Positions 43,518 through 59,643 of a stretch of 64,000 nt of DNA are shown here, piece after piece. Position 1 is the first letter of the stretch. The number at the start of each line of letters is the position of its first letter. The stretch comes from Pseudomonas coleopterorum (GTDB taxonomy: Bacteria; Pseudomonadota; Gammaproteobacteria; Pseudomonadales; Pseudomonadaceae), in contig NZ_FNTZ01000001.1 in assembly GCF_900105555.1 (NCBI RefSeq), positions 4,591,001 through 4,655,000 of the forward strand. The letters are read 5' to 3'. A program made the translations under genes and the position numbers. The notes under the pieces were generated by a model. It had not been told where the DNA came from. It saw only the letters and a program-made list of their open reading frames with translations, and ran no database searches.

Positions 43518-44348
43518 ATGAGAGCACCCCTGCGCAGCCTTTTGACCCTCGGCCTGCTGGCCACCTTCGCGACAGCCCCGGCCTTTGCCGCCGACTGCAC
43601 CGCCCCGACGGGACTGACCCTGATCAACCCCGGCCACCTGGTGATGTCGACCAACCCAACCTTGCCACCCTTGCAGTTCGTCGACAGCAGCGGCGAGCTC
43701 AAGGGCATGCGCATCGAGCTGGGCGCGGAAATCGCCAAGCGCCTGTGCCTGCAGCCCGACTACGTGCGTATCGAGTTCTCGGCCATGGTGCCGGGTCTAC
43801 AGGGGGGCCGCTGGGACATGATCAATACCGGCATTTTCTTCACCCCCGAGCGAGCCAGGATCATGTGGATGATCCCTTACGAGAACCAGGCCGTCAGCCT
43901 GTCGGCACTCCCGGACAATCCCGGCAAGATCAGCCGTCTGGAAGATCTCGCCGGCCAGAGCGTGGGCGTGGAGATTGGTGGCTTCGAGGAAAACGCTGCC
44001 AAGAAAGCCAGCGCCGAACTGGTTGCCAAGGGCCTCAAGCCTATCGATATCCGTACCTTCGATAACTTCTCCATCGCCTTCCAGGCCCTGCGCGCCGGCC
44101 AGGTTCAAGCGGTGGTCAGCCTGGACTCGGTCGCCGTCGAGTATCAGAACCAAGGCAAATTCAAACAGGTGATCGCCGGACTGGAACCGACCCCGGTCGC
44201 CATCGCCTTCAAGGACCGCGCCCTGGCCGATGCCGCCGCCAAGGTGCTCAACGACATGCGCGCCGATGGCAGCCTGGAGGCTCTGTTCAAGCGCTACGGC
44301 GCCCAGAGCACGTCCGGCGATTTCACCGTCAAGGGCCCGACCACCTGA
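43518..44348 (+). CDS. ABC transporter, periplasmic amino-acid binding protein
   Basis: The 276-residue product has a signal peptide of about 24 residues (ending AFA) and an SBP family 3 fold (ELKGMRIELGAEIAKRL; RWDMINTGIFFTPERA; DNFSIAFQALRAGQVQAVV). It is placed between the lyase and the permease genes of the plus-strand operon and is the likely partner of the ATPase at 37589-38317. Confidence 0.88.
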   Translation: MRAPLRSLLTLGLLATFATAPAFAADCTAPTGLTLINPGHLVMSTNPTLPPLQFVDSSGELKGMRIELGAEIAKRLCLQPDYVRIEFSAMVPGLQGGRWDMINTGIFFTPERARIMWMIPYENQAVSLSALPDNPGKISRLEDLAGQSVGVEIGGFEENAAKKASAELVAKGLKPIDIRTFDNFSIAFQALRAGQVQAVVSLDSVAVEYQNQGKFKQVIAGLEPTPVAIAFKDRALADAAAKVLNDMRADGSLEALFKRYGAQSTSGDFTVKGPTT

Positions 44349-44377
44349 ACGTCCGCCACTCAAAGGAGGCATGACTG

Positions 44378-45127
44378 ATGAATCAAGGCTGGAGCTGGAC
44401 CGGGTACTTCGACTACCTCTTCAATCATTTCTTGATGATGGGGGCGTTCTACACCGTCTGCCTGACTCTGGCCGGGATGCTGGGCGGCCTTGTGCTGGGT
44501 GCGCTGCTGACCTTCGCGCGGATGTCGCCCAGGGTCTGGTTGTCGACCCCGGCGCGCCTGTACATCTGGATCTTCCGCGGCACGCCGTTGCTGGTCCAAC
44601 TCATCATCATCTATACCGGCCTGCCCCAACTGGGGCTGCGCTTCAGCGTACTCGAAGCGGTGGTGCTGGGGCTGGTGATCAACGAAGCGGCGTACCTGGC
44701 CGAAATCATCCGCGGTGGCGTCCAGGCCATCCCGCCGGGGCAAATCAATGCGGCCAAGGCACTGGGCTTCCGCGGCCTGGGCGTACTGCGCTACGTGGTG
44801 TTCCCGCAGACCATGCGCCTGATCGTGCCGACCCTGGGCAACAGCTTCAATGGCCTGCTCAAGACCACCTCGATCGCGTCGGTGATTTCCATGGAGGAGT
44901 TGCTGCGCCGCACGCAGATGCTCATTCAGGAGAAATTCATGGTGCTGGAATTGTTCATGGTGGCGGCCACCTATTACCTGATCCTCACCACCCTGTGGGA
45001 TTTCGTCCAACGGCGCATCGAGCGTCATTACGCAACCGCCTACCTTGTCGATCGCGGCAGCAATAAAAATGTGCCTGCGCTCGACACACCTGCCGCCCTA
45101 CCCACCACCGCCAAGGAGAGTCGCTGA
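44378..45127 (+). CDS. Polar amino acid ABC transporter, permease subunit
   Basis: The 249-residue product has about five membrane helices and the conserved cytoplasmic loop QINAAKALGFRGLGVLRYVVFPQ. It is of the HisM/GlnP family. It is 29 bases after the binding-protein gene and 0 bases before the amidohydrolase gene. Confidence 0.88.
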   Translation: MNQGWSWTGYFDYLFNHFLMMGAFYTVCLTLAGMLGGLVLGALLTFARMSPRVWLSTPARLYIWIFRGTPLLVQLIIIYTGLPQLGLRFSVLEAVVLGLVINEAAYLAEIIRGGVQAIPPGQINAAKALGFRGLGVLRYVVFPQTMRLIVPTLGNSFNGLLKTTSIASVISMEELLRRTQMLIQEKFMVLELFMVAATYYLILTTLWDFVQRRIERHYATAYLVDRGSNKNVPALDTPAALPTTAKESR

Positions 45128-46546
45128 ATGCACCGCTTCGACCTGATTGTCAGCAACGCCGATATCGTCACGGTGGGCGGTCGCTTCAACGCCGACATAG
45201 GCGTTCGCGACGGCCGTATCGCGACCTTGGCCCACGGCCTGGATCCTGCCCTGGCCGACCAGGTGATCGATGCCGCCGGGCGCATGGTCACTCCGGGTGG
45301 CGTGGACGCCCACTGTCATCTGGATCAAGCATCCGACGATGGCTCCAAAGGCTCGGATGACTTCCTCACCGGCACCCGCTCGGCAGCCTGCGGTGGCACC
45401 ACCACGGTGATTCCGTTCGCCATGCAGTTCAAGGGACAAAGCCTGGACGAAGCAGTGGCCGACTACCACCGACGTGCCGAGGGTCAGGCCAGCATCGACT
45501 ACGCCTTTCACCTGATCATCAGCGACGCTTCTCCCGCTGTGGTCAAGGAACAACTGCCGCGCATGGTCGAGGCGGGTTACACCTCGTTCAAGATCTACAT
45601 GACGTATGAATCGCTGAAGCTGTCAGACCGTGAAATCCTCGATGTACTCGACGCGGCTCGCACGCTGGGTGCCTTGAGCATGATCCATGCGGAAAACGAC
45701 GACTGCATCGCCTGGCTCACCGAGCGCCTGCTGGCTCAAGGCAAGACTGCCCCGCGCTACCATGCGCTGGCCCATTCCGCGATTGGCGAGCGCGAGGCGA
45801 CCCACCGGGCTATCTCCCTGTCCGAACTGGTAGACGTCCCCATCCTGCTGGTGCATGTCTCCAGCCGCGCGGCAGTGGAGCAGATTCACTGGGCGCGCGG
45901 CCAAGGGTTCAACATCTTCTCGGAGACCTGCCCGCAGTATCTATTTCTGACGGCCGAAGACCTGGGCATAGGTGACGATTTCCATGGTGCCAAGTGCATC
46001 TGCAGCCCGCCGCCACGAGATGCAGATAGCCAGAAGGCCATCTGGAATGGGCTGGCCAACGGTACGTTCACGATCTTCTCCTCGGACCACTCCCCCTATA
46101 ACTTCGACGATCCGCAGGGCAAGAAGCTGCACGGCGAAGATGCCTCCTTCGACCGTATTCCCAACGGCATCCCGGGTTTGGAAACCCGCTTGCCGCTGCT
46201 GATGAGCGAAGGTGTATTGGGCGGACGCATCAGCGCCGAGCGTTTCGTGGAACTCACGGCCACGGCTCCGGCACGCCTGTACGGGCTGTATCCCCAGAAA
46301 GGCACCATCGCCGTGGGCGCCGATGCCGATCTGGTGATCTGGGACAACGACCTGGATAAGACCCTTCGCCATGTCGACCTGCATAGCGCGGCAGATTACA
46401 CTCCGTACGAAGGCTTCAAGCTCAAGGCATGGCCGGCATGGACCTTGTCGCGTGGCAAGCCGGTGTGGGCCCACGGTGCCTATTGCGGCACCGCCGGAGC
46501 GGGACGTTTCCTCCCATGCGCAGCGCCCTTCCCTGCGCAGAAATGA
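45128..46546 (+). CDS. Dihydropyrimidinase/hydantoinase-type amidohydrolase
   Basis: The product has 472 residues. It has GGVDAHCHLDQ (His-x-His metal ligands), the lysine to be carboxylated in SFKIYMTY, MIHAEND and LVHVSS (further His ligands), and SSDHSPYN with the Asp. This is the cyclic amidohydrolase (hydantoinase, dihydropyrimidinase, allantoinase) superfamily. It starts directly at the permease stop. It would open a cyclic amide or imide; no carbamoylase of the AmaB/HyuC kind was found. The C-terminal 20 residues look unusual for the family and may be a tail. Confidence 0.85.
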   Translation: MHRFDLIVSNADIVTVGGRFNADIGVRDGRIATLAHGLDPALADQVIDAAGRMVTPGGVDAHCHLDQASDDGSKGSDDFLTGTRSAACGGTTTVIPFAMQFKGQSLDEAVADYHRRAEGQASIDYAFHLIISDASPAVVKEQLPRMVEAGYTSFKIYMTYESLKLSDREILDVLDAARTLGALSMIHAENDDCIAWLTERLLAQGKTAPRYHALAHSAIGEREATHRAISLSELVDVPILLVHVSSRAAVEQIHWARGQGFNIFSETCPQYLFLTAEDLGIGDDFHGAKCICSPPPRDADSQKAIWNGLANGTFTIFSSDHSPYNFDDPQGKKLHGEDASFDRIPNGIPGLETRLPLLMSEGVLGGRISAERFVELTATAPARLYGLYPQKGTIAVGADADLVIWDNDLDKTLRHVDLHSAADYTPYEGFKLKAWPAWTLSRGKPVWAHGAYCGTAGAGRFLPCAAPFPAQK

Positions 46547-46583
46547 CCGGGCTGCACTCATTCATTACGGATTCAACACTTTC

Positions 46584-47270
46584 ATGTCGGACAACCAAGA
46601 CAAAGCGCTCGCCGCGATCATGGCGGCCACCCCGCTCTCCCTGAAATCTTCCAGCCTGGCGGAGCAGATCTACACACTGCTGCGTCAGTTGATCCTGGAA
46701 CGCAAGATCCCGGGCAGCAGCGAGATGTCTGAATCCCGGTTGGCGGATGAACTCAAGGTTTCTCGTACACCCATGCGTGAAGCCTTGGTACGCCTGGCCG
46801 GCGAGGGCCTGCTGGTACGCCGCGGCGCCCGCTCGTTTGCCGTTCGCGCAGTGGATACCAAGGAATACTTCGACAGCATGACCCTGCGCGAAATGCTCGA
46901 GTGCGAAGCCATCGTCAAGGCTGCCGGACGGATCGACCAAGCTCAACTGGAAGTCTTCGCGGCGGAACTGCAGGAACTGGACCAAGGCGAGCACGACGAG
47001 AACGACTACTGGCTGTTCGACGATCGCCTGCACAATTTCATTGCCGAAGCCTCCGGCAATACGGTGCTGGTAAAGTTGCTCGCCCAACTGCGCGCCAACT
47101 CCCGCCTTTTCCGCCTGCACAGCCCCCTGCATCGGCAGAAGGAAAACCATAGCGAGCATTCGGCCGTGCTCGATGCGTTGCGCCAGCAGGATACCGAGGC
47201 CGGGGTATCGGCGATGCGGCAGCACATCCAGAACCTGCGCAATGAAGTGCTCAAAGCCCTTTCAGAGTAA
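46584..47270 (+). CDS. GntR family regulator (FCD domain)
   Basis: The 228-residue product has an N-terminal winged HTH (SRLADELKVSRTPMREALVRLAGEGLL) and a C-terminal FCD all-helical ligand domain with the metal-type Asp/His residues (DDRLHNFIAEASGN, HSEHSAVLDAL). It ends the plus-strand catabolic operon, and the 50-bp palindrome upstream of the operon is its likely target. I chose the ATG at 46584; the frame is open earlier but without similarity. Confidence 0.88.
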   Translation: MSDNQDKALAAIMAATPLSLKSSSLAEQIYTLLRQLILERKIPGSSEMSESRLADELKVSRTPMREALVRLAGEGLLVRRGARSFAVRAVDTKEYFDSMTLREMLECEAIVKAAGRIDQAQLEVFAAELQELDQGEHDENDYWLFDDRLHNFIAEASGNTVLVKLLAQLRANSRLFRLHSPLHRQKENHSEHSAVLDALRQQDTEAGVSAMRQHIQNLRNEVLKALSE

Positions 47271-47399: not shown

Positions 47400-47930
47400 A
47401 TGGCCACCAAGCACCCACTTGAACCGCTGGCTCGACGCTTCCTCGGCAAACACCCTCATCAGCTCGAACCCGAAGAAATCCATGTGCTGGAGCAGATGAG
47501 AAAACGACTGCCGGTCAGCCGCGATGCCGGTGACGCCTCCGATGAGGTAGCCACCTTCGGTGAACGGTTGTCCGATCGTGTAGCGGCAATCGGTGGTTCA
47601 TGGGCCTTCATCATCGCTTTCACCATCATCCTGCTGGGCTGGATGCTGCTCAACACCGATGTACTCGATCACTTCGGCCTGGCCTTCGACCCCTACCCGT
47701 ACATTTTCCTCAACCTGATGCTGTCCACCGTCGCAGCCATTCAGGCGCCGGTGATCATGATGAGCCAGAACCGCCAGTCAGCCAAAGACCGCCTGGCCGC
47801 GAGCCTGGACTTCGAGGTGAACCTGCGCGCGGAGCTGGAGATCATGCGACTGCATGAAAAGATCGACAAGGAGATCGTCGAGCGCCTGGATCGGATATTG
47901 GCGAAGGTGGAGCCTGAGGGGACGGTGTGA
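47400..47930 (+). CDS. DUF1003 family inner-membrane protein
   Basis: The 176-residue product has two central membrane helices (SWAFIIAFTIILLGWMLLNT and PYPYIFLNLMLSTVAAIQAPVIM region) and a charged C-terminal helix (RLAASLDFEVNLRAELEIMRLH), the pattern of DUF1003. Function unknown. It is a single gene with a terminator shared with the aldehyde dehydrogenase gene on the other strand. Confidence 0.85.
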   Translation: MATKHPLEPLARRFLGKHPHQLEPEEIHVLEQMRKRLPVSRDAGDASDEVATFGERLSDRVAAIGGSWAFIIAFTIILLGWMLLNTDVLDHFGLAFDPYPYIFLNLMLSTVAAIQAPVIMMSQNRQSAKDRLAASLDFEVNLRAELEIMRLHEKIDKEIVERLDRILAKVEPEGTV

Positions 47931-48013
47931 GAAGGCTTGTGGAAACCCACCCTCCAACTGGCCGTATAACCGTCTGTGCTCATGCCATTGGAGAAAAAAG
48001 GTCGCGATGAACG

Positions 48014-48047
48014 AAAAAGCCAGGCGCGCAGGCGACCTGGCTTTTTT
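48014..48047. terminator. Bidirectional rho-independent terminator
   Basis: An 11-bp stem AAAAAGCCAGG/CCTGGCTTTTT with an 11-base loop has T runs on both strands. It separates the DUF1003 gene from the convergent aldehyde dehydrogenase gene. Confidence 0.85.
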
Positions 48048-48072
48048 GCTTTACACGGTTGGCTACCTTGCA

Positions 48073-49512
48073 TCAGTTCAGGCCAGGCACCCCGGCCCGC
48101 GTCACATGCTTCACCGCCTGATACGCCGCCAGCCCCCAGGGGCCGAGTTCGCGCCCAATGCCGCTGCCCTTGCTGCCACCCCACGAGGTTTCGACGAACA
48201 CCGCTTGTATCGAGTTGATCCACACGTGCCCGACCTCAAGCGCATCAGCCACCCGCTCGGCGCGGGCAATATCGCAGCTGGCTACCGTGGCCACCAGGCC
48301 GAAGCGGCTGTCGTTGGCACGATCGATCGCCTCTTGTTCACGGCTGAAACGCTGAGTACACAGCACCGGGCCGAAGATTTCTTCATTCCACAAACGGCTG
48401 CTCGTCGGCACGTCCTGGTACAGCGTCGGGCTTACGAACCAGCCGTCTCGCGTCAGCGCGGCGCCGCCGCTCAGGCACCGCAAGCCTTCCTGTTCGGCAA
48501 TGGCGAAATACTCGCGCACCTTATGCCACTGCGCCTGGCTGGTCAGCGGTCCCATGTCGACCTCTTCGGTCAGGGGGTTACCCACCCGCAGTGCGGCGAA
48601 CGCAGCCTGTAAGCGCGGGATCAGTGCCTCGGCGATGCCGTCCTGAATCAGCAACCGCGAAGTGGCCGAGCACATTTGTCCTGCGTTCCAGCAGATGCCA
48701 CCCACGATCCATTCCACCGCCTCGTCGGGGTCGCAGTCATCGAACACGATAAACGCCGATTTTCCGCCCAGCTCCAGAGTAACTGGCCGACAGAATGCCG
48801 CTGCGCTGTGCATCACCTGGCTACCTACGCTGTTGCTGCCGGTGAACGACAGCTTGTCGAGGCCCGCATGGTTGCTCAGTGCCGCGCCGATGTCTGCCTT
48901 GCCGTTGACGATATTCAGCACGCCGGCGGGCAAACCCAGGCTATCGGCGATTTCGGCGTAGGCCTGCTCGATCAGCGGGGTGACTTCCGAGGGTTTGAGT
49001 ACCACGGTGCAACCGGCCGCCAGGGCCGGGGCAAGTTTCCAGGCGCTGGTGACCAGTGGAAAATTCCACGGCACGATCAGGCCGACCACGCCCACCGGTT
49101 CCAGCCGTGTGCGGGACGTGAAGCCGGGCAAGGCCAGTTCGACGTCGCGGTGGCTGGACTGGGTTTCGATCAGCTTGGCGTAATAGCCGAAGGTCGCCAC
49201 AGCGTCGTCGAGATCGACTTCGGCTTCGTGCCGAGGCTTGCCGTTGTTGCGCATCTGCAAGGCAACCAGCGCTTCGCGGCGCTGGATAAGGTGCTCGGCA
49301 AAACCGCGCAATACGGCAGCGCGCTCGGCGACAGAGGTGTTTTTCCACGCAGGCAGCGCGGCGCGGGCGGCAGCCACGGACTGATCGACCTGCGCGCTGC
49401 TGGCGGCGATCAGTTCGACGAAGGGCAGTCCCAGCGCCGGATCGTACACGGTCAGGACATCAGCGCCCTCGCCCGGCTGCCAGCGGCCATTGATGTAGTG
49501 CGGGGTGTTCAT
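48073..49512 (-). CDS. NAD(P)-dependent aldehyde dehydrogenase, possibly 4-guanidinobutyraldehyde dehydrogenase
   Basis: The product has 479 residues. It has PWNFPLVTSAWKLAPALAAG, the LSFTGSNSVG nucleotide site, the general base in LELGGKSA and the nucleophile in GQMCSATSR. It is the last gene of the minus-strand guanidino operon, 32 bases after the AruI-like decarboxylase gene, whose product would be an aldehyde. In the arginine transaminase pathway KauB oxidises 4-guanidinobutyraldehyde to 4-guanidinobutyrate, which the guanidinobutyrase of the same operon then uses. The substrate is inferred from context. Confidence 0.85.
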   Translation of the reverse strand: MNTPHYINGRWQPGEGADVLTVYDPALGLPFVELIAASSAQVDQSVAAARAALPAWKNTSVAERAAVLRGFAEHLIQRREALVALQMRNNGKPRHEAEVDLDDAVATFGYYAKLIETQSSHRDVELALPGFTSRTRLEPVGVVGLIVPWNFPLVTSAWKLAPALAAGCTVVLKPSEVTPLIEQAYAEIADSLGLPAGVLNIVNGKADIGAALSNHAGLDKLSFTGSNSVGSQVMHSAAAFCRPVTLELGGKSAFIVFDDCDPDEAVEWIVGGICWNAGQMCSATSRLLIQDGIAEALIPRLQAAFAALRVGNPLTEEVDMGPLTSQAQWHKVREYFAIAEQEGLRCLSGGAALTRDGWFVSPTLYQDVPTSSRLWNEEIFGPVLCTQRFSREQEAIDRANDSRFGLVATVASCDIARAERVADALEVGHVWINSIQAVFVETSWGGSKGSGIGRELGPWGLAAYQAVKHVTRAGVPGLN

Positions 49513-49544
49513 GGTGTGGCTCCATCGGGGATTTTATAGCGGGT

Positions 49545-51158
49545 TCAGGGGGCAAACGGTGGAGCCTGGTTGATTTCGATGATCAGCGGGCGATCATCCG
49601 GGGCTTCGCGCAGCAGGGTTTGCAGGTGTTGGTAATCGCGGGCGCGCTCGGCCGCGCAGCCAAACCCGCGGGCTATCGCGAGAAAGTCCGGGGTGTAGAT
49701 GTCGACACCCAGCGGCGTGATGTCGCGGCGTTGCATGTAGCTTTTGATCTCGCCGTAGCCCTGGTTATTCCAGAGCAGCACGATGATGCCAACCTGCGCC
49801 TCAACGGCGCTGGCCAGTTCCGGCAGGGTGAACTGAATGCCACCGTCACCCATCAGGCTGATCACCACCCGCGCAGGCTCGGCCAACTTGGCGCCGATGG
49901 CCGCCGGCAGGCCGTAGCCAAGAGTGCCGTAGCCGGTGGAGGCGTTGAACCAGCGGCGTGGGCTGCTGAGCTCGACCAGGTGATTGCCGCTGTACACCGT
50001 CTGCGTCGAGTCGCCGACAAAGCGCGCCTCGGGCAGTACCTCAAGCACGCAGTCGAACAGTTTGCGGTAGTGCGCCCAGCTGCTGAAATCCTCGGCCAGT
50101 TGCTGCTGCACCGCCGCCGTACGCTGCACGCCAAGGCTATCGGCACTGGCCGCCCGCGCCGGCAGTTCGGCTAGCAAGGCGCGTATCGCTGCCGTCGCAT
50201 CACTGAGGATCGCGAGATGCGGCGTATGGTTGCGGGTCAACTGTTCGGCATCGATATCGATGCGGATCAGTTCGCCGCCAATCCTGAAGTTGCCATCGAA
50301 CACCACGTCGTAATCGGTCTCGCCCAGCTCGGTGCCGATCGCCAGCACCACATCGGCATCCAGCGCTAGTTGCCGCACCGGTACCAGCGACTGGTTGCTG
50401 CCCAGCAACAACGGGTGCCCGCCCGGCAACAAACCTTTGGCATTGATGGTCAGGGCCGTCGGTGCATCCAGCCGGGTGACCAGCTCGCGGACTTCGTCCA
50501 TCGCGGCCACGCAGCCTCCACCGAGTAACAGCAGCGGCTGCTGGGCTGCGCGCAACCGCGCAGCCGCCTTGCTGATCGCCTCAAAGTCCGGCGCCGGTCG
50601 GGCGATGACCTGGCGCGGCACCAGCGTCAGGTGATCGGCGCTGGCAGTGATGATGTCCAGCGGCAGCTCGATGTGCACCGGGCGTGGGCGCTGGCTGTCG
50701 AACACCGCGAAGGCCCGCGCCAGCACAGCGGGCAGTTCGTCGACGCTCATCAGCGTGTGGCTGAATGCGCTGACGCCGGCGACCATCGTCCGCTGGTTGG
50801 GCAACTCGTGCAGATAGCCGTTGCCCAGGCCCAGGCGATGACGCTCGTTGACGCTGGAAATCACCAGCATCGGAATCGAGTCGGCATACGCCTGGCCCAT
50901 CGCGGTGAGGATATTGGTCATGCCGGGGCCGGTGATGATGAAACATACCCCAGGCTTGCCACTAACCCGCGCATAGCCGTCGGCCATGAAGCCCGCGCCC
51001 TGTTCGTGGCGCGGCGTGACATGGCGAATGCCGCTGTTTGGCAGGCCGCGATACAGCTCGACGGTGTGCACGCCGGGAATGCCGAACACCATGTCGACGC
51101 CCCAGGCATGCAGTTGCTTGACCAGGAACTCTCCGCAAGTGCTTGCACACGTACTCAT
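49545..51158 (-). CDS. Thiamine-diphosphate decarboxylase (AruI/IlvB family)
   Basis: The product has 537 residues. It has the catalytic Glu in TPRHEQGAGFMADGYAR, the central domain, and the cofactor motif GDGGIQFTLPELASAVEAQVGIIVLLWNN. Among the IlvB family it most resembles, by memory, the 5-guanidino-2-oxopentanoate decarboxylase AruI rather than biosynthetic acetolactate synthase, and no small regulatory subunit gene is present. AruI converts 2-ketoarginine to 4-guanidinobutyraldehyde. Its start overlaps the stop of the fused ABC gene by four bases. Substrate assignment rests on context with gbuA. Confidence 0.75.
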   Translation of the reverse strand: MSTCASTCGEFLVKQLHAWGVDMVFGIPGVHTVELYRGLPNSGIRHVTPRHEQGAGFMADGYARVSGKPGVCFIITGPGMTNILTAMGQAYADSIPMLVISSVNERHRLGLGNGYLHELPNQRTMVAGVSAFSHTLMSVDELPAVLARAFAVFDSQRPRPVHIELPLDIITASADHLTLVPRQVIARPAPDFEAISKAAARLRAAQQPLLLLGGGCVAAMDEVRELVTRLDAPTALTINAKGLLPGGHPLLLGSNQSLVPVRQLALDADVVLAIGTELGETDYDVVFDGNFRIGGELIRIDIDAEQLTRNHTPHLAILSDATAAIRALLAELPARAASADSLGVQRTAAVQQQLAEDFSSWAHYRKLFDCVLEVLPEARFVGDSTQTVYSGNHLVELSSPRRWFNASTGYGTLGYGLPAAIGAKLAEPARVVISLMGDGGIQFTLPELASAVEAQVGIIVLLWNNQGYGEIKSYMQRRDITPLGVDIYTPDFLAIARGFGCAAERARDYQHLQTLLREAPDDRPLIIEINQAPPFAP

Positions 51159-52672
51159 GCTGCGCTCTCCTGTTCCAGACCGATAAAGCGCCGCACCCGC
51201 GCATCGCCTTTGTGGCGGATCGCCGCTGGCGAGGCGTCGGTGACCACGTGGCCGTTTTCCATGAACACGATGCGATCGGAAATCGACAGGGCGAAATCCA
51301 TCTCGTGGGTGACGATCAGCATGGTCATGCCTTCGGCCGCCAGGTCACCAATCACCTTGAGCACATCGCCCACCAGTTCCGGGTCCAGCGCCGAGGTCGG
51401 TTCGTCGAACAGCATGATGTCGGGCTCCATCGCCAGCGCGCGGGCAATCGCCACGCGCTGTTGCTGGCCGCCCGACAACTGGTGCGGGTACTTGTCGGCA
51501 TGCGCCAGCAGCCCGACCCGGTCCAGCAAGGCATGGCCCTTGCGGCGCAACTCAGCCGTACTGGCCAGACTGTGGTAACGCGGGGCAAGGATGACGTTGT
51601 CGAGAATGGTCCGGTGCGGGAACAGATTGAAGTTCTGGAAGACCATGCCGATGCGCCGGATGCCTTGGCGGATCACCGGAGAATCGGTGCGTGTGCCGGC
51701 CTTGATGAAGTCATGGCCGAACAGCACGATTTCGCCTTGATCAATGGTCTCCAGGCTATTGATAGTGCGGATCAACGAGGTCTTGCCGGAGCCGGACGGG
51801 CCGATGATCGAAATCACCTCACCGGGCCGCACAGCGAGGTCGATGCCCTTGAGCACTTCATGGTTGCCATAGCGCTTGTGAATGTTGCGCAGTTGCAAGG
51901 CGTCGGGCTGTCCCGCCACCGGCTCGCAACGCGGCTTCGCAAGGCCGGCCGGTTGGCGCAAGGCTTCGGTCTGCACGGCCTCCAGGGTTTGTGCGTTTTT
52001 GCGTGAGAGGTCCAGATGGCGCTCGGCCCACTGCAACAGCCAGCCGAACAGGGTGACGATCAGCACGTAATACACGGCTACCGCTGCCAGGGTTTCCAGC
52101 ACCAGAAAGTTTTGCGCGTACAGGCGCTGGCCGACCATCAGCAGCTCGCTGAGCGAGATCACCGAGACCAGCGAGGTGAGTTTGACGATGGTCACGTATT
52201 CGTTGGTCAACGTCGGCAAGGAGATACGAATCGCCTGCGGGATGATCACCAGCCGCTGCGCGCCCAGCCCGCGAATACCCAGCGCCTTGGCCGCTTCGCG
52301 CTGGCCCTTGAGCACCGACAGCAGGCCGCCCCGGTGAATCTCGGCCATGTACGCGGTTTCAGTCAGTACCAACGCGATCAGCCCGGAATAGAACGGCTGC
52401 GACAGCACGCTGCCGGCGGCTGGAAACAGCTGCGGCAGGTTATAGACGAACACCAGCAGCACCAACAGCGGGATGCTGCGAAACAGCCAGATGTACAGGC
52501 TGACCGGCAGGCGCAGCCAGGCACGCGTCGACAGCTTGGCGCTGGCCAGTACAAAGCCCAGCACCAGACCCAGAGTCCAGGACAAGGTGCTGAGCTGCAC
52601 CACCGTCAGGCAGGCCTTCCAGAAGGCCGAGACGGAGAACAGTGAGAAAAAATAGGCCCATTCGAATGCCAT
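51155..52672 (-). CDS. Amino-acid ABC transporter, permease fused to ATPase
   Basis: The product has 505 residues. The N-terminal 210 residues are a HisM/GlnP-type permease (EAA-type loop QREAAKALGIRGLGAQRLVIIPQ). After a linker of about 45 residues, a GlnQ-type ATPase follows (Walker A GPSGSGKTSL, signature [16 protein letters not shown], Walker [13 protein letters not shown]). The fusion spares a separate gene. It pairs with the binding protein upstream and is part of the guanidino operon, so arginine-like compounds are plausible cargo. Confidence 0.88.
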   Translation of the reverse strand: MAFEWAYFFSLFSVSAFWKACLTVVQLSTLSWTLGLVLGFVLASAKLSTRAWLRLPVSLYIWLFRSIPLLVLLVFVYNLPQLFPAAGSVLSQPFYSGLIALVLTETAYMAEIHRGGLLSVLKGQREAAKALGIRGLGAQRLVIIPQAIRISLPTLTNEYVTIVKLTSLVSVISLSELLMVGQRLYAQNFLVLETLAAVAVYYVLIVTLFGWLLQWAERHLDLSRKNAQTLEAVQTEALRQPAGLAKPRCEPVAGQPDALQLRNIHKRYGNHEVLKGIDLAVRPGEVISIIGPSGSGKTSLIRTINSLETIDQGEIVLFGHDFIKAGTRTDSPVIRQGIRRIGMVFQNFNLFPHRTILDNVILAPRYHSLASTAELRRKGHALLDRVGLLAHADKYPHQLSGGQQQRVAIARALAMEPDIMLFDEPTSALDPELVGDVLKVIGDLAAEGMTMLIVTHEMDFALSISDRIVFMENGHVVTDASPAAIRHKGDARVRRFIGLEQESAA

Positions 52673-52783
52673 GATGACCTCGGTATAGCGGATGGATGGC
52701 GATCAGCTCGGGGTTAGCACGAACGTTGCAGGAGCGCGCTTGCCGGAATGCCGGACCGCCACGCTCCTGCGCAGGGAGGATTG

Positions 52784-53587
52784 TCAGGCAGGGTCCAGGT
52801 TGTACTTCTTCAGCAGTTCGCTGTATTCGCCGCTGCGCTTGTAGGTTTCAACCACGCCACGCATCTTTTCCAGCAACTCGGTGTTGCCCTTCTTCACATA
52901 AATGCCGAGGGTCTGCGGGTACAGGGATTTCTGCGAGCTGATCACGATCCGGCCACGGGCCTTGTCGACGATCATTTTCGCTGCCGCCGAGATTTCCAGA
53001 TGCGCCTGGATATTGCCGGACATCAACGCCTGGGAAGCTTCTGCGGTGGTCGGGAATTCGCTGATGGCGATCTCGCCCTTGTTCTGCTTGGTGCAGTAAT
53101 CAGCCGAAACTGCCTTGAGCTGGTTGATCCAGTTGGTGCCCTGCTGCAAGCCGACTTTCAGGCCGCACAAGTCTTCAGGCTGCTGCGGTTTGGCGGTGCT
53201 GTCGCTGCGCACCATGATCGCCGCGCCGACTTGCGCGTACGGAATCGCGTCGGCCTGCTTGGTGCGCTCGTCGGTGATGTACATGCCGGAAATGATGGTG
53301 TCGAAGCGGTTGGCGTTCAGGCCCAGGATCAGGTTCGGAAAGCGGGTGTCGACGAATTCGACCTTCAGGTCGCCCAGTTGCTTGGCCAGCGCGGTCGACA
53401 CCTCAGGGTCAAAGCCCACCACCTTGTCGCCGTCGTAGGACTCGAACGGCGGGTAAGAAATCTCCATGCCGACCTTCAGCGTACCGGGCGTGGCAGTGGG
53501 CGCGGCCTGCACGCTGCCGGCGAACAGGGCGGCACCCATGAGCACAGAAGTGGCAAGGCGCGAAAACGTGGTGTTTGGCATAGTCAT
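52784..53587 (-). CDS. ABC transporter, periplasmic amino-acid binding protein
   Basis: The product has 267 residues with a signal peptide (about 26 residues, ending VQA). It is an SBP family 3 protein with VVGFDPEVSTALAKQLGDL and NRFDTIISGMYITDERTKQ. The start may be 53587 or the ATG two codons later (53581). It is 111 bases upstream of the fused permease-ATPase gene. Family 3 proteins bind amino acids and guanidino compounds; the ligand cannot be told. Confidence 0.87.
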   Translation of the reverse strand: MTMPNTTFSRLATSVLMGAALFAGSVQAAPTATPGTLKVGMEISYPPFESYDGDKVVGFDPEVSTALAKQLGDLKVEFVDTRFPNLILGLNANRFDTIISGMYITDERTKQADAIPYAQVGAAIMVRSDSTAKPQQPEDLCGLKVGLQQGTNWINQLKAVSADYCTKQNKGEIAISEFPTTAEASQALMSGNIQAHLEISAAAKMIVDKARGRIVISSQKSLYPQTLGIYVKKGNTELLEKMRGVVETYKRSGEYSELLKKYNLDPA

Positions 53588-53613
53588 GATTCCAGATTGA
53601 GGGTAAAGGCAGA

Positions 53614-54651
53614 TCACGAAGTCACGTTCTGGTTTTTCAGGTGCCCGAAGCTAGAAGGCTTTCTGGCGTGCTGCGGCAAGGCAATCTGCCCGTCGGCGAC
53701 ACGCTGGCGAAGGTACTGATAGGTCTGTAAAGCCTGGGCCCACATGTGCTCGCCAATGGTGATGGGCGTGTAGTTCTGCTCGCCGGCCGCGAAGGGCGGC
53801 AGCGGTTTGATCTGGGTGTGGTAATCGCAGGCGTAGAACAGCGGAAACGAATAACGCTCCTGCTTGACCTTGCGCACCCGGTGCGCGGTGGCGACAAAGG
53901 CGCCGGCGGTCATCACCTCGAGCATGTCGCCGATATTGACCACGAAGGCGCCGTCGACCGGCGGCGCATCGATCCACTCGCCCTGCTCGTTCATTACCTC
54001 AAGGCCTGGCTGGTCGGCCTTGAGAATGGTGAAGCACTCGTAGTCGGTGTGCGCGCCGATGCCCGGTGCGTCCTGTGCGTCGCCATCAAACGGATAATGG
54101 ATCAGGCGCAGCTTGGACGGCGGAAAGCAGGCCATGTCGTCGAAGGCATGTTCATCCAGGCCCAGCGCCAGGGCAAAGCCGCGAAACAGCTGGTGCCCCA
54201 AGGCAAACACCGCTTTGTAGTAGGCCTGCACCGCCGCTTGAAAACCTGGCAGGGTCGGCCAGTTGTTCGGCCCCAGCAGCGGCGTGCCGTTGAGCACCAG
54301 CGGGTTGTCTGCCGGTACTTCAAAACCGATATCGAACGCCTCTTTATGGTCCGGCTTGCCGGTGCCGTACACCTCCTCCCCCTCGGGAACGAAGCCCTTG
54401 TGGCTATCGGAAGCGCCGATGTAGTGCTGCATCTTGGCGTCCAGCGGCTGGGCGAAATACTGTTCGGCGGCGCGGTGCAGGTTATCGATCAGCTGCGGCG
54501 CGATGCCGTGGCCGGTGATGTACAGAAAGCCCACATGCCTGGCCGCCTCGCCGAGCGCCTGGGCCACTGCCTGGCGATCTTCCAGGCGTTCGCTGAACAG
54601 ACCGTGGATATCGACCACGGGAATGCGGGTGAAAGCAGAACGTTCACTCAT
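53614..54651 (-). CDS. Iron/2-oxoglutarate-type oxygenase (isopenicillin-N-synthase family)
   Basis: The product has 345 residues. It has the N-terminal DIOX_N domain ([11 protein letters not shown] ... [11 protein letters not shown]), and in the C-terminal 2OG-Fe(II) domain the iron triad GAHTDYE (His, Asp) and TAHRV (His), with the cosubstrate-binding Arg-x-Ser in ERYSFPLF. The arrangement and a GEEV...GKPD stretch recall the ethylene-forming enzyme, whose co-substrate is arginine, but I cannot align them. The gene overlaps the TIM-barrel gene (ATGA). A hydroxylation of an arginine-like compound would fit the operon; this is inference. Confidence 0.85.
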
Positions 54652-55508
54652 GGCAGCAGGCTCTCCGGACGGTTGGAAAAGGCAGTGAAGTGTTCGCGCT
54701 CGGTGCGGCCCATCCACGCATTCAGGTTCCACAGGTCGGCCACCGGCACATCGGTGAACGGCAAATGATGCAGGTAACCATCGGGGCCGAACTCCGGCGT
54801 CAGCGTGGTGCCGGTGTAGCCGCGGGCCTGTTGCGAGCGCCAGATGGCTTGCCAGTGCTGCTGATGAAACGCCAGCGCAGCGGCGTATTCCGGCGCGCCG
54901 GGATGCGGCACTTGCGGGCCCTGGTCATAGCCGACCCGGGCCTGAATGTGATGCACGCGCTCGACAAAGGCGCTGAGGTCATCGGCGGGATCGTCGAGCA
55001 GTCGCTCGCACGTCACCACCCAATGGCTGATGTCGCTGGTAAAGCGCAGGTCGGGCACTTGCTCGATCAATTGCAGGGTCAGCCACGGATTGAACAGCGA
55101 GCGCGCGCGGTGGGTTTCAAAGCTGCAGGTCAGGCCGCTGCGTTTTGCAATCTCCAGCGCCTCAGCGAAAAAGTCGACCTGCTGAGCCAGCGGCCAGCGG
55201 TCGTTGCCGGCCAGTACATTGACAAAACGAGGTTCCAGTTCGACGGTCAGTTGCAACTTGCGGGCAAAGTCCGTCAGGTGCTCGGCCGGCGTCGCCGCCT
55301 GCAACGGCAGCACCGGCGTCGAAGTAAAAAGAATGGCGATGTACGGCACGCGATTGTCACGCAGGAACGCCGCGAACGCCGCCCGCTCGGTCGCGTCCTC
55401 GGGGATGCGCGCCTCGAAGCCGTCGAAGCCTGCGGCACGTGCCTCGACCAGCGCCTGTTGCCATGTGCCGCGATAGCCCCACAGCGTACGAAAGATTTCC
55501 AGTTTCAT
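54648..55508 (-). CDS. Sugar phosphate isomerase/epimerase-like TIM-barrel protein
   Basis: This 286-residue member of the AP-endonuclease-2 superfamily has a probable metal site from [20 protein letters not shown] and LTPEFG. Relatives are isomerases and epimerases of sugars, hydroxypyruvate and inosose. It lies between the permease gene and the oxygenase gene (coupled start), so it may act on a product of the oxygenase. No substrate can be assigned. Confidence 0.75.
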
Positions 55509-55550
55509 GGGCGAACCTCGCCGCCTGTGCCCGCTTGGGCACAGCACGGA

Positions 55551-57053
55551 TCACAAATGGGCGGTGGCCGATTGAGTGACGTTGCTCATGGCCTTGCGGC
55601 CCAGCATCGGGTGCGCGCCTTTCGGGCCGTATACCGAAGCCGGCTCCGGAAACGTGCGCAGCAAGGTCAGGTACAGCAGCGCGGCAAGGCCCAGCGTGAT
55701 CGGCAAGCTGATGTCGATACCGCCGGCCAGTTCGCCCAGCGGCCCGACAAATTGCCCTGGCAGATTGACGAAGCACAGGCCCACCGCCGCGCTCGGAATC
55801 CACGCGCCCAGGCCGCGCCAGTTCCAGCCATGGTTGAACCAGTAGCGACCACCGCGCTGGCCACGAGTGAACACCTGCAAATCATCGGCGTGATAAAAAC
55901 CGCGACGGCTGATCAGGCCAAGGATCATCACCACCATCCACGGGCTGGTGCAGGTGATGATCAGCACCGCGAAGGTCGACACGCTCTGGACCAGATTGAA
56001 GGTGAAACGGCCAATGAAGATAAACGCAATCGCCGCCACACCGATCAACAGCGTAGCGCCAGCGCGGCTGAGCAGGCGCGGAAACATGCTCGACATGTCC
56101 AGCCCCGTGCCATACAGCGCCGTGGTGCCGGTCGACAGGCCGCCGATCACCGCAATCAGACACACCGGCAGGAAGAACCAGCTCGGCGAAATCGCCAGCA
56201 GGCCGCCAACATAGTTATTCGCCTCGATGTATTGCGGTGCCTGGGACGCGACCAGCGTCGCCGTGCACAGGCCGAACAGGAAGGGAATCAGCGTACCGGC
56301 CTGAGCGGCCAGCACCGCGAGCATGATGCGAGTCTTGTCGGTGTCGCGCGGAATGTAGCGTGACCAATCGCCGAGAAAGGCACCGAACGACACCGGGTTG
56401 CTCATCGCCAGCAACGCCGCGCCGATGAACGCCGCCCAGAAGCCCGGTTGTTGCAGGTTGACGCTGCCGGCATAGCCCGCATCGAATGGCCCGGCAAACG
56501 CCAGAATGCCCAGCAGAAACAGCAGGCTCGACGCCCACACCGCGATTTTGTTGACCCACAGCATGAAGCGAAAACCGAAGATGCAGACGATCAATACCAG
56601 CACCGCAAACAGCCCGTAGGCCAGGCCCAGGCTGAAGTCGGTTTCCGGCAAGCCAACCAGTCGTCTCGCGCCACCGACCAGCGCGTCGCCAGAGCTCCAG
56701 ACCGAGAGGGAAAAGAACGCCACCGCCGTGAGCAGTGACAGAAACGAGCCGATGATGCGCCCGTGGACGCCGAAGTGCGCCCCGGACGACACCGCGTTGT
56801 TGGTGCCATTGATGGCGCCGAACAAGCCCATCGGCGCGAGAATCAACGCCCCCACCGCCACGCCCAGCAGAATCGCCCAGACCCCGGCCTGGAACGACAG
56901 CCCGAACAGCACCGGGAAACTGCCCAGCACCGCCGTGGCAAAGGTATTGGCACCGCCGAAGATCAAGCGAAACAGATCGATAGGGGAAGCATCGCGTTGG
57001 TTGTCGGGTATCTGCTCGACACCAAAGGTTTCGATACGCGTCGAATGGCTCAT
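55551..57053 (-). CDS. NCS1 family permease (cytosine/purine/allantoin type)
   Basis: The product has 500 residues with about twelve membrane segments. It starts IPDNQRDASPIDLFRLIFGGAN, the NCS1 pattern, with SFGAFLGDWSRYIPRDTDKTRI and GTGLDMSSMFP. The ATG at 57053 has GGAG upstream. From memory, a related permease gene sits beside gbuA in P. aeruginosa, so a guanidino acid is a plausible substrate. Confidence 0.85.
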   Translation of the reverse strand: MSHSTRIETFGVEQIPDNQRDASPIDLFRLIFGGANTFATAVLGSFPVLFGLSFQAGVWAILLGVAVGALILAPMGLFGAINGTNNAVSSGAHFGVHGRIIGSFLSLLTAVAFFSLSVWSSGDALVGGARRLVGLPETDFSLGLAYGLFAVLVLIVCIFGFRFMLWVNKIAVWASSLLFLLGILAFAGPFDAGYAGSVNLQQPGFWAAFIGAALLAMSNPVSFGAFLGDWSRYIPRDTDKTRIMLAVLAAQAGTLIPFLFGLCTATLVASQAPQYIEANNYVGGLLAISPSWFFLPVCLIAVIGGLSTGTTALYGTGLDMSSMFPRLLSRAGATLLIGVAAIAFIFIGRFTFNLVQSVSTFAVLIITCTSPWMVVMILGLISRRGFYHADDLQVFTRGQRGGRYWFNHGWNWRGLGAWIPSAAVGLCFVNLPGQFVGPLGELAGGIDISLPITLGLAALLYLTLLRTFPEPASVYGPKGAHPMLGRKAMSNVTQSATAHL

Positions 57054-57116
57054 GTGTTGCTCCAGCACCTGTCACGGTTGTTGTAAGGCCAGCGCAGGCA
57101 CGCTGACCCTTTATGG

Positions 57117-57137
57117 CCGCCCGTTGACCCCGGGCGG
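57117..57137 (-). other. GC-rich hairpin in the leader of the NCS1 permease gene
   Basis: A 7-bp perfect stem CCGCCCG/CGGGCGG with a 7-base loop lies 64 bases upstream of the permease start, after a very A+T-rich run on the minus strand. It has no T run, so it may be an attenuator-like or mRNA-processing structure. Confidence 0.4.
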
Positions 57138-57172
57138 AGGGTTGCTGCTATTTTTTTATAATGTCGCGGCGG

Positions 57173-57559
57173 TTAACCCGTCACTTCCGACAAATGCTCA
57201 TGCCAAGCAAGCCAGCGCTCGCCCTCACAGCGGAATACGATCGTCTCGCGCTCCTTCAAGCGCAGCTCTTCGGTACCGATGCGCACATGTGTCGCCACGT
57301 CATGCACGAAAATGGCCGTATCGCCCTGCACGTTGACCCAGACGTTACTCGACTCACAGCCCAGCACCGCAAAACCATCGATCTGCCATTGCTGCCACAA
57401 CGTTTCATACTCGGCCCGCGAGTTCAGCGGCTTGGCCAGGGTATGAAAGACAAAACTGGCGTCAGGACTGAAACAGTCGAAATAACGTGCCGTGTCGTTG
57501 CTGGCAAAGGCCGCGACCAGCGCCGCAGCCGCCTCGAGAACCTCGGTTTCACGGTTCAT
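57173..57559 (-). CDS. NTF2/SnoaL-like protein of the gbu cluster
   Basis: The product has 128 residues of the cone-like NTF2 fold (LVAAFASNDTARYFDCFSPDASFVFH, then WLAWHEHLSEV). The same gene lies by gbuA in other pseudomonads, as I recall. The role is unknown. Its ATG overlaps the gbuA stop by four bases. Confidence 0.75.
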   Translation of the reverse strand: MNRETEVLEAAAALVAAFASNDTARYFDCFSPDASFVFHTLAKPLNSRAEYETLWQQWQIDGFAVLGCESSNVWVNVQGDTAIFVHDVATHVRIGTEELRLKERETIVFRCEGERWLAWHEHLSEVTG

Positions 57560-58515
57560 CGACGGACGACGCCCGGCAGCACACAGAGCATTTCGTACAA
57601 CAGGTTGGCGCCCAGCAGCGAGGTGTTGCCAGTGGTGTCATACGGCGGCGACACCTCGACCAGATCGCAACCGATCAAGTCCAGCCCCTGGCAACCTCGG
57701 ATTATCTCCAGCGCCTGGATCGTAGTCAGCCCGCCGACCTCCGGTGTCCCGGTGCCCGGTGCCCAGGCCGGGTCGATGCCATCGATGTCGAACGACAAGT
57801 ACACCGGCCCACCACCGACCTTCTCGCGGACTTCGGCCATCAACGGCGTCAGCGACTTGTGCCAGCAATCCTCGGCCTGCACCACACGGAAACCCTGCTT
57901 GCGGCTCCAGTTGAAATCCTCGGCGGTATAACCCTGAGCCCGCAGGCCGATCTGCACCACACGGTCGCTGTCGAGCAGACCCTCTTCCTGCGCGCGGCGG
58001 AACGTGGTGCCGTGGGCAATCTTCTCGCCGAACATGTGATCGTTGACGTCGGCATGCGCATCGATATGCACCAGTCCGACCTTGCCATGCTTCTTGTGAA
58101 TGGCCCGCAGGATCGGCAGCGTCAGTGTGTGATCGCCTCCCAGCGTCAGCGGCACGATGCCGTGGCCCAGAATCCGGTCGTATTCCTGCTCGATGATGCG
58201 CACCGCATCGAGCAGGTTGAAGGTATTGATCGGCACATCGCCGATGTCGGCCACGTTCAACGAATCGAACGGCGCGGCACCGGTGGCCATGTTGTAAGGA
58301 CGGATCATCACCGACTCGGCACGAATCTGCCGTGGCCCGAAACGAGTGCCGGAACGCAGCGAAGTACCGATGTCGAGCGGGATACCGATAAACGCTGCAT
58401 CCAACCGATCGAGTTCTTCGGCGGCTTGTATATGAGGCAAACGCAGCATGGTGGCGATGCCGCCGAAACGAGGCATCTCGTTCCCGCCCAAAGGCTGGTG
58501 GAAAGTCGTGTCCAC
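57556..58515 (-). CDS. gbuA: Guanidinobutyrase (ureohydrolase family)
   Basis: This 319-residue manganese enzyme cleaves 4-guanidinobutyrate to 4-aminobutyrate and urea. The ureohydrolase metal motifs are GGDHT, HIDAHADVND and SFDIDGIDPAWAPGTGTPE. The sequence, including the N-terminal HQPLGGNEMPRFGGIATM, agrees with the GbuA of P. aeruginosa I remember, which distinguishes it from agmatinase and arginase. It is the first gene of a ten-gene operon that ends with the aldehyde dehydrogenase. Confidence 0.9.
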   Translation of the reverse strand: MDTTFHQPLGGNEMPRFGGIATMLRLPHIQAAEELDRLDAAFIGIPLDIGTSLRSGTRFGPRQIRAESVMIRPYNMATGAAPFDSLNVADIGDVPINTFNLLDAVRIIEQEYDRILGHGIVPLTLGGDHTLTLPILRAIHKKHGKVGLVHIDAHADVNDHMFGEKIAHGTTFRRAQEEGLLDSDRVVQIGLRAQGYTAEDFNWSRKQGFRVVQAEDCWHKSLTPLMAEVREKVGGGPVYLSFDIDGIDPAWAPGTGTPEVGGLTTIQALEIIRGCQGLDLIGCDLVEVSPPYDTTGNTSLLGANLLYEMLCVLPGVVRR

Positions 58516-58599
58516 GGGGTGGCCTCACTTTGTGGTCATTGAAGTGACCCCATTCTGGTGACGCCCCGCAGCCAGAAGAATCGCTGCCCACAAATAATC

Positions 58600-58619
58600 A
58601 GTTCAGAGATTTCTAAACT
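58600..58619. promoter_or_regulatory. Imperfect dyad in the gbuA-gbuR divergent region
   Basis: AGTTCAGAGA and TTTCTAAACT are an 8-of-10 inverted repeat. They fit a LysR-type binding site between the divergent genes and are 85 bases upstream of the gbuA start. Confidence 0.5.
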
Positions 58620-58749
58620 ATCCAGGGATACACTGGCCGTCTGAAACACTGCGATATCCCATCCGGCAATGGACCTGTGGGAGAGGGCTCTGCCCGCGCC
58701 ACAGCCCAACCCTACAAGACCTGAACTGCCCCCCCGGAGCCCACCCCCA

Positions 58750-59643
58750 ATGTCCTCTGCCCTGCCCGACCTCAAACTGCTGCGCATCTTCGCCTGCGTA
58801 GTACGCCACCAGGGTTTCGCCGCCGCGCAGCAGGAACTCAACCTCTCCACTTCCGCCATCAGCACTTACATGAGCCAGCTCGAGACCCAGCTCGGCCTGG
58901 TGCTCTGCCACCGTGGCCGTGGTGGCTTCAGCCTGACCAGCAAAGGCGAACTGTTCCATCAGGAAACCTTGCGCCTGCTCGCCGAACTCGAAGGCTTCGA
59001 ACGCTACAGCGCCGCCCTCAAAGGCGAACTGCGCGGCACTCTCAATCTCGGTGTGCTCGACTCCACCGTCAGCGACCCGGCCCTGCCGCTGGCCGACGTC
59101 ATCGGCGCCTACAGCAAGGAACACCCCGCAGTACACCTGCACCTCTCCGTGCTCAGCCCCGCGCAACTGCAACTGGGCTTACAGGAAAACCGCCTGGACC
59201 TGGCCATCGGCGCCTTCTCGGTGCGCATGAATGGGCTTATGTACCAAGCGCTGTACCGCGAACAGCACTGGCTGTATTGCAGCGATCGGCATGAGTTGTT
59301 CGAGCAGCGGCGAATTCCGGCCGAGGTGATCACCCAACAACGAATGGTCGGGCGCGGGTACTGGAGCCAGGCGGAACTGGCCCGCCACGGGTTCAAGCAC
59401 AGCGCGGCGACGGTGGAGTCGATGGAGGCGCAACTGATCTTGGTGTTGTCGGGAGCGTATATCGGCTATCTGCCGGAACACTACGCGCAATTCTGGGCGG
59501 ATCAGAAGCGGTTGAAGGTGCTGTTGCCGACGACGTTCGGATATCAGGCACCGTTTTCGTTGGCTTTGCGGCGGGGACGGTCGAGGGAGCCTTTGATACA
59601 GAGCTTTCGAGATCGGTTGAGGGGGTGGTTTGAAGCCAGCTGA
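58750..59643 (+). CDS. gbuR: LysR-type regulator GbuR, likely activator of the gbu operon
   Basis: The 297-residue product has an HTH (FAAAQQELNLSTSAISTYMSQLETQLG) and a LysR effector domain. It is divergent from gbuA, as gbuR is in P. aeruginosa, where it is needed for growth on guanidinobutyrate. The ATG at 58750 has GGAG 11 bases upstream; a longer frame from 58669 passes through a REP-like repeat (58676-58698). It is convergent with glmS. Confidence 0.85.
   Translation: MSSALPDLKLLRIFACVVRHQGFAAAQQELNLSTSAISTYMSQLETQLGLVLCHRGRGGFSLTSKGELFHQETLRLLAELEGFERYSAALKGELRGTLNLGVLDSTVSDPALPLADVIGAYSKEHPAVHLHLSVLSPAQLQLGLQENRLDLAIGAFSVRMNGLMYQALYREQHWLYCSDRHELFEQRRIPAEVITQQRMVGRGYWSQAELARHGFKHSAATVESMEAQLILVLSGAYIGYLPEHYAQFWADQKRLKVLLPTTFGYQAPFSLALRRGRSREPLIQSFRDRLRGWFEAS

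Follow-up and report, generated by a model that had tools for sequence, protein, structure and literature searches.

What is gained when genes of the arginine transaminase pathway share an operon with an oxygenase, an isomerase-like protein and an importer? The question is raised by a locus of Pseudomonas coleopterorum (assembly GCF_900105555.1, contig NZ_FNTZ01000001.1), of which we analysed a window of 64,000 nucleotides (positions 4,591,001 to 4,655,000, renumbered here from its first letter). Nine genes run on its minus strand from 58515 to 48073 in the order gbuA (guanidinobutyrase), snoaL-like, NCS1 permease, TIM barrel, oxygenase, SBP_bac_3 binding protein, permease-ATPase fusion, AruI-like decarboxylase and aldehyde dehydrogenase (ALDH), with a LysR gene divergent from them. 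The TIM barrel, the Fe/2-oxoglutarate (2OG)-type oxygenase, the binding protein and the fused permease-ATPase are together called the cassette. On balance we favour reading the locus as a two-module guanidino-acid unit, in which the cassette would import a guanidino acid and oxidatively convert it to a substrate of GbuA. Guanidino compounds have only recently been recognised as a nitrogen source, with few pathways known to lead into them.

The cassette is a conserved unit, as seen in a survey of 149 Pseudomonas genomes that included the one studied here. The oxygenase gene (53614..54651; isopenicillin-N-synthase-like, Pfam DIOX_N and 2OG-FeII_Oxy) has relatives at 72-100% identity in 34 of the 149, and in all 34 the cassette is complete and in order, as read from 20 kb around 33 fetched loci and from the window. 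The oxygenase is thus accompanied every time (34/34) by the adjacent xylose-isomerase-like TIM-barrel gene (54648..55508; Pfam AP_endonuc_2 over cut-off), and by the genes for the periplasmic solute-binding protein of polar amino acid type (52784..53587; Pfam SBP_bac_3) and the fused ABC permease-ATPase (51155..52672; BPD_transp_1 and ABC_tran in one frame). Five genomes, two of them also among the 34, hold an oxygenase relative at 54-58%, and the other listed matches are paralogues at 38-42%.

The tie between cassette and gbuA was assessed in the same genomes, 133 of which carry gbuA at E 1e-150. In seven of the 34 the cassette lies within 10 kb of gbuA, against 0.11 expected under uniform placement, a figure that ignores relatedness. 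The other 27 cassettes are not linked to gbuA and adjoin recBCD genes, a short-chain dehydrogenase, molybdenum-enzyme genes and others. They could be taken to mean that a cassette for some unrelated polar compound has landed in an operon that happened to suit it, its neighbourhood having no functional meaning, and the unlinked Pseudomonas cassettes do form one clade. The excess of linked cassettes argues against this, as does the fact that the linkage turns up again in several families, where the gene order differs and a LysR gene adjoins, and we regard a neighbourhood without function as quite unlikely. In a joined tree of TIM barrel and oxygenase (67/104 distinct rows) and in a TIM tree that includes desaturase-type TIMs (52 rows), gbuA-linked cassettes are spread across several lineages and the unlinked Pseudomonas clade is supported at 99/99 and 99/97; L181, from another genus, falls outside it (L and G numbers are our handles for loci and genomes). 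The linkage label needs two changes on the TIM tree, where the starred branches force one and several rows are long-branched. The trees point to a linkage to gbuA that was kept while gene order changed; repeated origin is not claimed.

Beyond the genus, a contig profile scan with the TIM alignment was used, keeping the best 80 of 224 relatives; these partly come from the same genomes as the genus survey, so that the counts overlap. In 21 of the best 80 loci gbuA is present, in at least four gene orders. It stands first in the P. syringae group (P. viridiflava, P. cichorii, P. cerasi and others) and in Stutzerimonas kirkiae; the order is gbuA, cassette, class II aldolase and aruI in S. azotifigens and S. 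nosocomialis, cassette, aldolase and gbuA in P. daroniae and P. flavescens, and cassette, gbuA, NCS1 permease and ALDH in Salinicola peritrichatus. For P. daroniae and P. flavescens an operon without aruI was considered and dropped, as whole-genome coordinates put 3.6 kb between gbuA and aruI, and the aldolase label of L098 was unusable (a 42% match on the opposite strand). Of the 390 genomes in an order-wide survey, 25 have the TIM barrel, and 20 of these 25 do not belong to the Pseudomonadaceae. Six of these 20 (G304, G653, G827, G856, G873 and G877, in families f6, f8 and f118) share one fixed operon, in which a divergent LysR gene is followed by gbuA, TIM barrel, oxygenase, binding protein, permease-ATPase, class II aldolase and D-2-hydroxyacid dehydrogenase. 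The cassette importer was found in those six alone among the 20, and their LysR proteins, encoded beside gbuA, are 51-54% identical to that of the window. In one locus of this plan, L197, the permease-ATPase matches in two pieces.

These genomes bear directly on the role of AruI. In one alternative, 2-ketoarginine is produced or altered by the oxygenase and TIM barrel, or these two use hydroxyarginine or homoarginine, and the product then passes obligatorily through AruI, ALDH and GbuA in that order. All these genes do share one operon in the window, and 13 of the best 80 TIM loci are labelled with gbuA and aruI and five more with gbuA, aruI and aldolase (one aldolase being doubtful). In G205 and G209, which belong to a different genus within the family, gbuA and aruI are paired without the cassette, which in turn stands about 1.6 kb from a 61% AruI and has no gbuA beside it. 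In two genomes from outside the genus but within the family, 3.6 kb separates gbuA from an AruI of 80-81% identity, and a distinct AruI of 61% lies elsewhere, and G500 has gbuA and aruI on one contig and the cassette with the aldolase on another. Against an obligatory AruI step, all seven genomes outside the Pseudomonadaceae with gbuA and cassette (the six with the fixed operon and Salinicola) lack any AruI above 31% identity, showing only 26-31% matches to thiamine-diphosphate enzymes, and each has a GbuA of 74-77% identity at the cassette locus; two of the seven have an additional arginase-family relative at 39-43%. Nine gbuA-aruI operons moreover lack the cassette, among them L190, which has the ALDH gene nonetheless. 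We therefore hold the AruI route to be unlikely. AruI is, by these comparisons, dispensable to the cassette-GbuA set, whose core partner is GbuA and not AruI; 2-ketoarginine therefore need not be an intermediate. GbuA can thus be separated from the arginine transaminase pathway, with seven genomes holding GbuA and cassette and no recognisable AruI.

The genes around the cassette form a module of their own. GbuA (57556..58515, GTG start; Pfam Arginase) aligns over residues 1-319 to residues 1-319 of PDB 3nio, named guanidinobutyrase, with 683.9 bits. The AruI-like thiamine-diphosphate decarboxylase (49545..51158) passes the NCBIfam subfamily model PRK07524, 5-guanidino-2-oxopentanoate decarboxylase, with 855.7 bits at a cut-off of 500. 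The ALDH (48073..49512; Pfam Aldedh) is of aminoaldehyde or betaine-aldehyde type, its best PDB relatives being plant betaine-aldehyde and aminoaldehyde dehydrogenases; its best NCBIfam match, PRK13473, reaches 440.4 bits, under the cut-off of 615, and none of the 25 matches listed passes a cut-off. Between GbuA and the cassette are encoded a SnoaL-like protein (57173..57559; Pfam SnoaL_3) and an NCS1-type permease (55551..57053; Pfam Transp_cyt_pur, with the NCBIfam model ncs1 below cut-off). The operon's AruI is the single one in its genome at E 1e-150. Two more arginase-family genes beyond gbuA occur there (L002 and L003), and arginine deiminase was not found in this genome using TIGR01078.

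The sequence-only reading of this DNA had placed the novelty in the joining of gbuA with AruI and ALDH, which the genome comparison does not support. AruI relatives in the genus fall into groups at 77-100% (the operon type, 16 genomes), 67-68%, 59-64% (most genomes) and 54-57%, and the operon type lies within 10 kb of gbuA in all 16 of its genomes, with the cassette in seven and without it in nine. The gbuA-aruI operon is thus more widespread than its union with the cassette. In L187 the order is gbuA, snoaL, ncs1, sodium:solute symporter and aruI without cassette, and in L190 it is lysR, gbuA, snoaL, ncs1, symporter, aruI and aldh; snoaL thus follows gbuA in some cassette-free relatives as well. 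The latter is an otherwise identical operon without oxygenase and TIM barrel, a finding that the same reading had named as counting against itself. As L190 shares the gene order and an ALDH 77% identical to that of the window (its symporter being 92% identical to that of L187), the window looks like L190 with the cassette in the place of the symporter; in L194 a different ABC importer occupies this place. The gbuA-snoaL-NCS1-AruI-ALDH set is the older operon within a composite. A hydrolase of metallo-beta-lactamase fold ends many gbuA-aruI operons (L188, L189, L191-L194 and L039:18176-18925).

Clues to the substrate come from the oxygenase and the binding protein. The iron triad H201, D203 and H257 of the oxygenase and the 2OG arginine R266 are invariant in 19 of 19 aligned rows, and Glu92 shows no variation across two overlapping alignments of 19 and 16 rows; in two paralogues of 39-40% identity the Glu92 column has Thr. 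The best two PDB relatives are 9ovh, a structure from a paper on ancestral reconstruction of the ethylene-forming enzyme (EFE), and PaIPNS (6jyv). EFE Glu84-Val85-Thr86 corresponds to Gly89-Glu90-Leu91 of PaIPNS, according to PMC12329707, and the alignment to 6jyv, whose chain numbering runs five higher than PaIPNS numbering (confirmed by the SFP motif), places Glu92-Glu93-Val94 of the window at the EFE residues. Glu92 is a hint of a guanidino substrate, not proof.

The same likeness raises the alternative that the cassette works in the manner of EFE, as an arginine hydroxylase unit releasing guanidine and 1-pyrroline-5-carboxylate (P5C), its adjacency to gbuA reflecting shared induction by arginine. 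The two proteins share the fold family, the iron ligands, the 2OG arginine and the Glu at the Glu84 position. The window oxygenase is nevertheless nearer in sequence to PaIPNS and 9ovh, entries named ethylene-forming enzyme other than 9ovh rank 14th or lower, Val stands at the Thr86 position and the gene context is another; P5C was undetectable from PaIPNS, as PMC12329707 reports. There is also no guanidine-using gene among the operon genes, an Rfam scan of 47500-59500 gave no family at threshold, and the binding protein lacks the Asp at the usual column. An EFE-like unit is therefore very unlikely in our view.

This missing Asp concerns Ile199 of the binding protein, a residue that all 17 aligned rows share, as do all 121 tblastn cassette matches (from overlapping loci, with some genes repeated). 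Its column holds Asp in three of the four PDB stretches of amino-acid binders listed, the fourth having Asp at the column of Glu198; in structures of the lysine-arginine-ornithine (LAO) type this Asp holds the alpha-amine. In the cassette binding protein of L197, Leu replaces Glu198.

Four residues of the TIM barrel, E131, D159, H187 and E239, do not vary across 29 rows, the most distant of them at 31% identity, and are presumably of metal type, as in xylose-isomerase-like barrels; PF01261 was found in 27 of the 29. Its structure was predicted from a wider alignment with a pLDDT (local confidence) of 93.4 and a pTM (overall fold confidence) of 0.91, the first model having reached 63.7. With UlaE, D-allulose 3-epimerases, IolE, AsbF and C-glycosyl deglycosidases it shares the fold (TM-score about 0.6) and the four conserved metal-type residues, and differs from them in sequence, with 11-18% identity over the 50 rows listed; none of these 50 structural matches is a close relative with a known function. 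Art22 was the top PDB match to the TIM profile. In 17 of the 20 genomes outside the family the TIM gene stands beside an oxygenase. Apart from the six with the fixed operon, its partner is a desaturase-like hydroxylase in ten, six of which also encode a complete NMT1-type ABC importer, and in one it is an oxygenase relative accompanied by a binding protein of NMT1 type; no recognised oxygenase stood beside it in three of the 20, one of them on a contig of only 3.6 kb. As the TIM gene adjoins a hydroxylase of either of two unrelated types, its arrangement suggests that the protein acts on the hydroxylated product.

Further loci around these two enzymes may be recorded here. The second TIM type occurs with a fatty-acid-desaturase-like hydroxylase and an NMT1-type ABC importer, without gbuA, at L184:9550-14209, L185:5794-10511, L201, L203, L204 and L206, and in partial sets with the hydroxylase at L202, L205, L207 and L208. 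One of several weak matches of the L185 hydroxylase is to GntB, an arginine hydroxylase model (30.3 bits, cut-off 380). Oxygenase relatives of 53-58% at L067:22-3131, L068:7801-11323 and L069-L071 lie near an NMT1-type binding protein, a family seen in L067 only, and near a protein of at least 310 residues; the L067 copy of the latter matches nothing in Pfam, and two copies proved unrelated to the TIM profile.

How the two modules might work together can be outlined from these families. The first, to which the NCS1 permease and the LysR gene belong, would lead from 2-ketoarginine over 4-guanidinobutyraldehyde and 4-guanidinobutyrate to 4-aminobutyrate (GABA) and urea, with the ALDH presumably taking the aldehyde step. 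In the second, the ABC importer would take up a guanidino acid that probably lacks a free alpha-amine, the oxygenase would hydroxylate it, and the TIM barrel would isomerise or split the hydroxylated product; what retains the guanidino group would then go to GbuA, yielding GABA and urea. In other families the class II aldolase and the D-2-hydroxyacid dehydrogenase could process the leftover fragment, and AruI would stand outside the core route. We infer the function of the cassette, its substrate and the TIM reaction from this arrangement. A modified guanidino compound is likely to be the real input, as the sequence-only reading had proposed, because oxygenase and TIM barrel move as a unit with an importer and their link to gbuA recurs. 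The evidence favours none of the particular substrates considered, namely opines, N-acyl arginine, argininic acid, homoarginine, agmatine conjugates and glycated arginine.

A more specific chemistry, which we put forward as a doubtful guess, is oxidative N-dealkylation, the oxygenase hydroxylating a carbon on a guanidine nitrogen of an N-substituted guanidino acid and the TIM barrel, as a metal-dependent hemiaminal lyase of a new kind, setting 4-guanidinobutyrate free for GbuA. The idea comes from the methylguanidine hydroxylase MgdH and its lyase MgdL, where, according to PMC12508155, a guanidine hemiaminal can be stable enough to require a lyase. If it were true, the aldehyde or keto fragment would be used by whichever enzyme a given locus encodes (aldolase, 2-hydroxyacid dehydrogenase, short-chain dehydrogenase or ALDH), the natural inputs would be keto or butyrate forms of methylated arginines and other N-alkyl guanidino acids, and the sister TIM beside desaturase-like hydroxylases would treat other N-alkyl compounds likewise.

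Several observations weigh against the two-module unit as we propose it. The 27 cassettes farther than 10 kb from gbuA all belong to genomes that carry gbuA elsewhere, and the linked ones may go back to a single ancestral linkage followed by reshuffling and loss, not to many independent events. The comparison with EFE is a sequence alignment combined with the published superposition of another homologue, and Glu84 of EFE also contacts the amine. For the binding protein, the Ile199 column holds Asp in only one of six non-cassette matches below 44% identity (L190, 43%), with Val in three, Ile in L195 and Gln in L194; alignments near 25-31% identity are unsafe, which makes this control weak and lowers our confidence in the proposed unit, and Glu198, next to Ile199, could serve as the amine binder. 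The TIM fold is common to epimerases, dehydratases and lyases, so that the predicted structure would allow isomerase, dehydratase or lyase chemistry alike.

Among the known systems closest to the locus is the arginine transaminase pathway of Pseudomonas, which comprises AruH, AruI, KauB and GbuA. The locus shares with that pathway the AruI-like decarboxylase, a GbuA of full-length kinship and an ALDH of aminoaldehyde type; it differs in that the operon has no aminotransferase (AruH) and in the extra cassette, found without AruI outside the Pseudomonadaceae. With MgdH/MgdL of Vreelandella boliviensis (PMC12508155) it has in common a 2OG/Fe oxygenase with a dedicated second enzyme in a guanidino-compound operon and an ABC importer. 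The MgdL lyase model is a beta-barrel, whereas the partner here is a TIM barrel, and the MgdH/MgdL operon has guanidine riboswitches and a guanidine carboxylase, whereas the window has GbuA beside a LysR gene. A search of open-licence papers found no report of this gene set. Every enzyme family in it is known, and we regard it as a variant of guanidino-acid catabolism and no new kind of system. The cassette has nonetheless stayed intact in four or more families within a single bacterial order and is recurrently linked to GbuA, and it is a candidate for an undescribed route. The gene set is beyond chance, because identical gene groups turn up again in relatives.

As for the operon itself, its ends had been placed correctly beforehand, at the ALDH stop (48073) and the GTG start of gbuA (58515), and the absence of an aminotransferase among the operon genes was confirmed. 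Its description as a ten-gene operon is right only if the LysR gene or both halves of the transporter fusion are counted; the operon genes number nine. Starts overlap at gbuA/snoaL, TIM/oxygenase and permease-ATPase/aruI and the remaining gaps span 26 to 119 nt; a single transcript is plausible from this spacing. After the ALDH gene lies a terminator-like hairpin with a U tract (48005..48062, minus strand), found by RNA folding at -22.9 kcal/mol (z -4.36, equalled by 0 of 200 shuffles); a simple consensus scan missed it and gave promoter-like and terminator-like sites no commoner than in shuffles. The divergent LysR-type regulator (58669..59643, plus strand; Pfam HTH_1 and LysR_substrate) reached no NCBIfam cut-off among the matches listed. 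Beside the operon end a DUF1003 protein is encoded on the plus strand (47400-47930), adjoined on the same strand by a group (43518-47270) of an SBP_bac_3 binding protein, an ABC permease, an amidohydrolase and an FCD-type GntR regulator.

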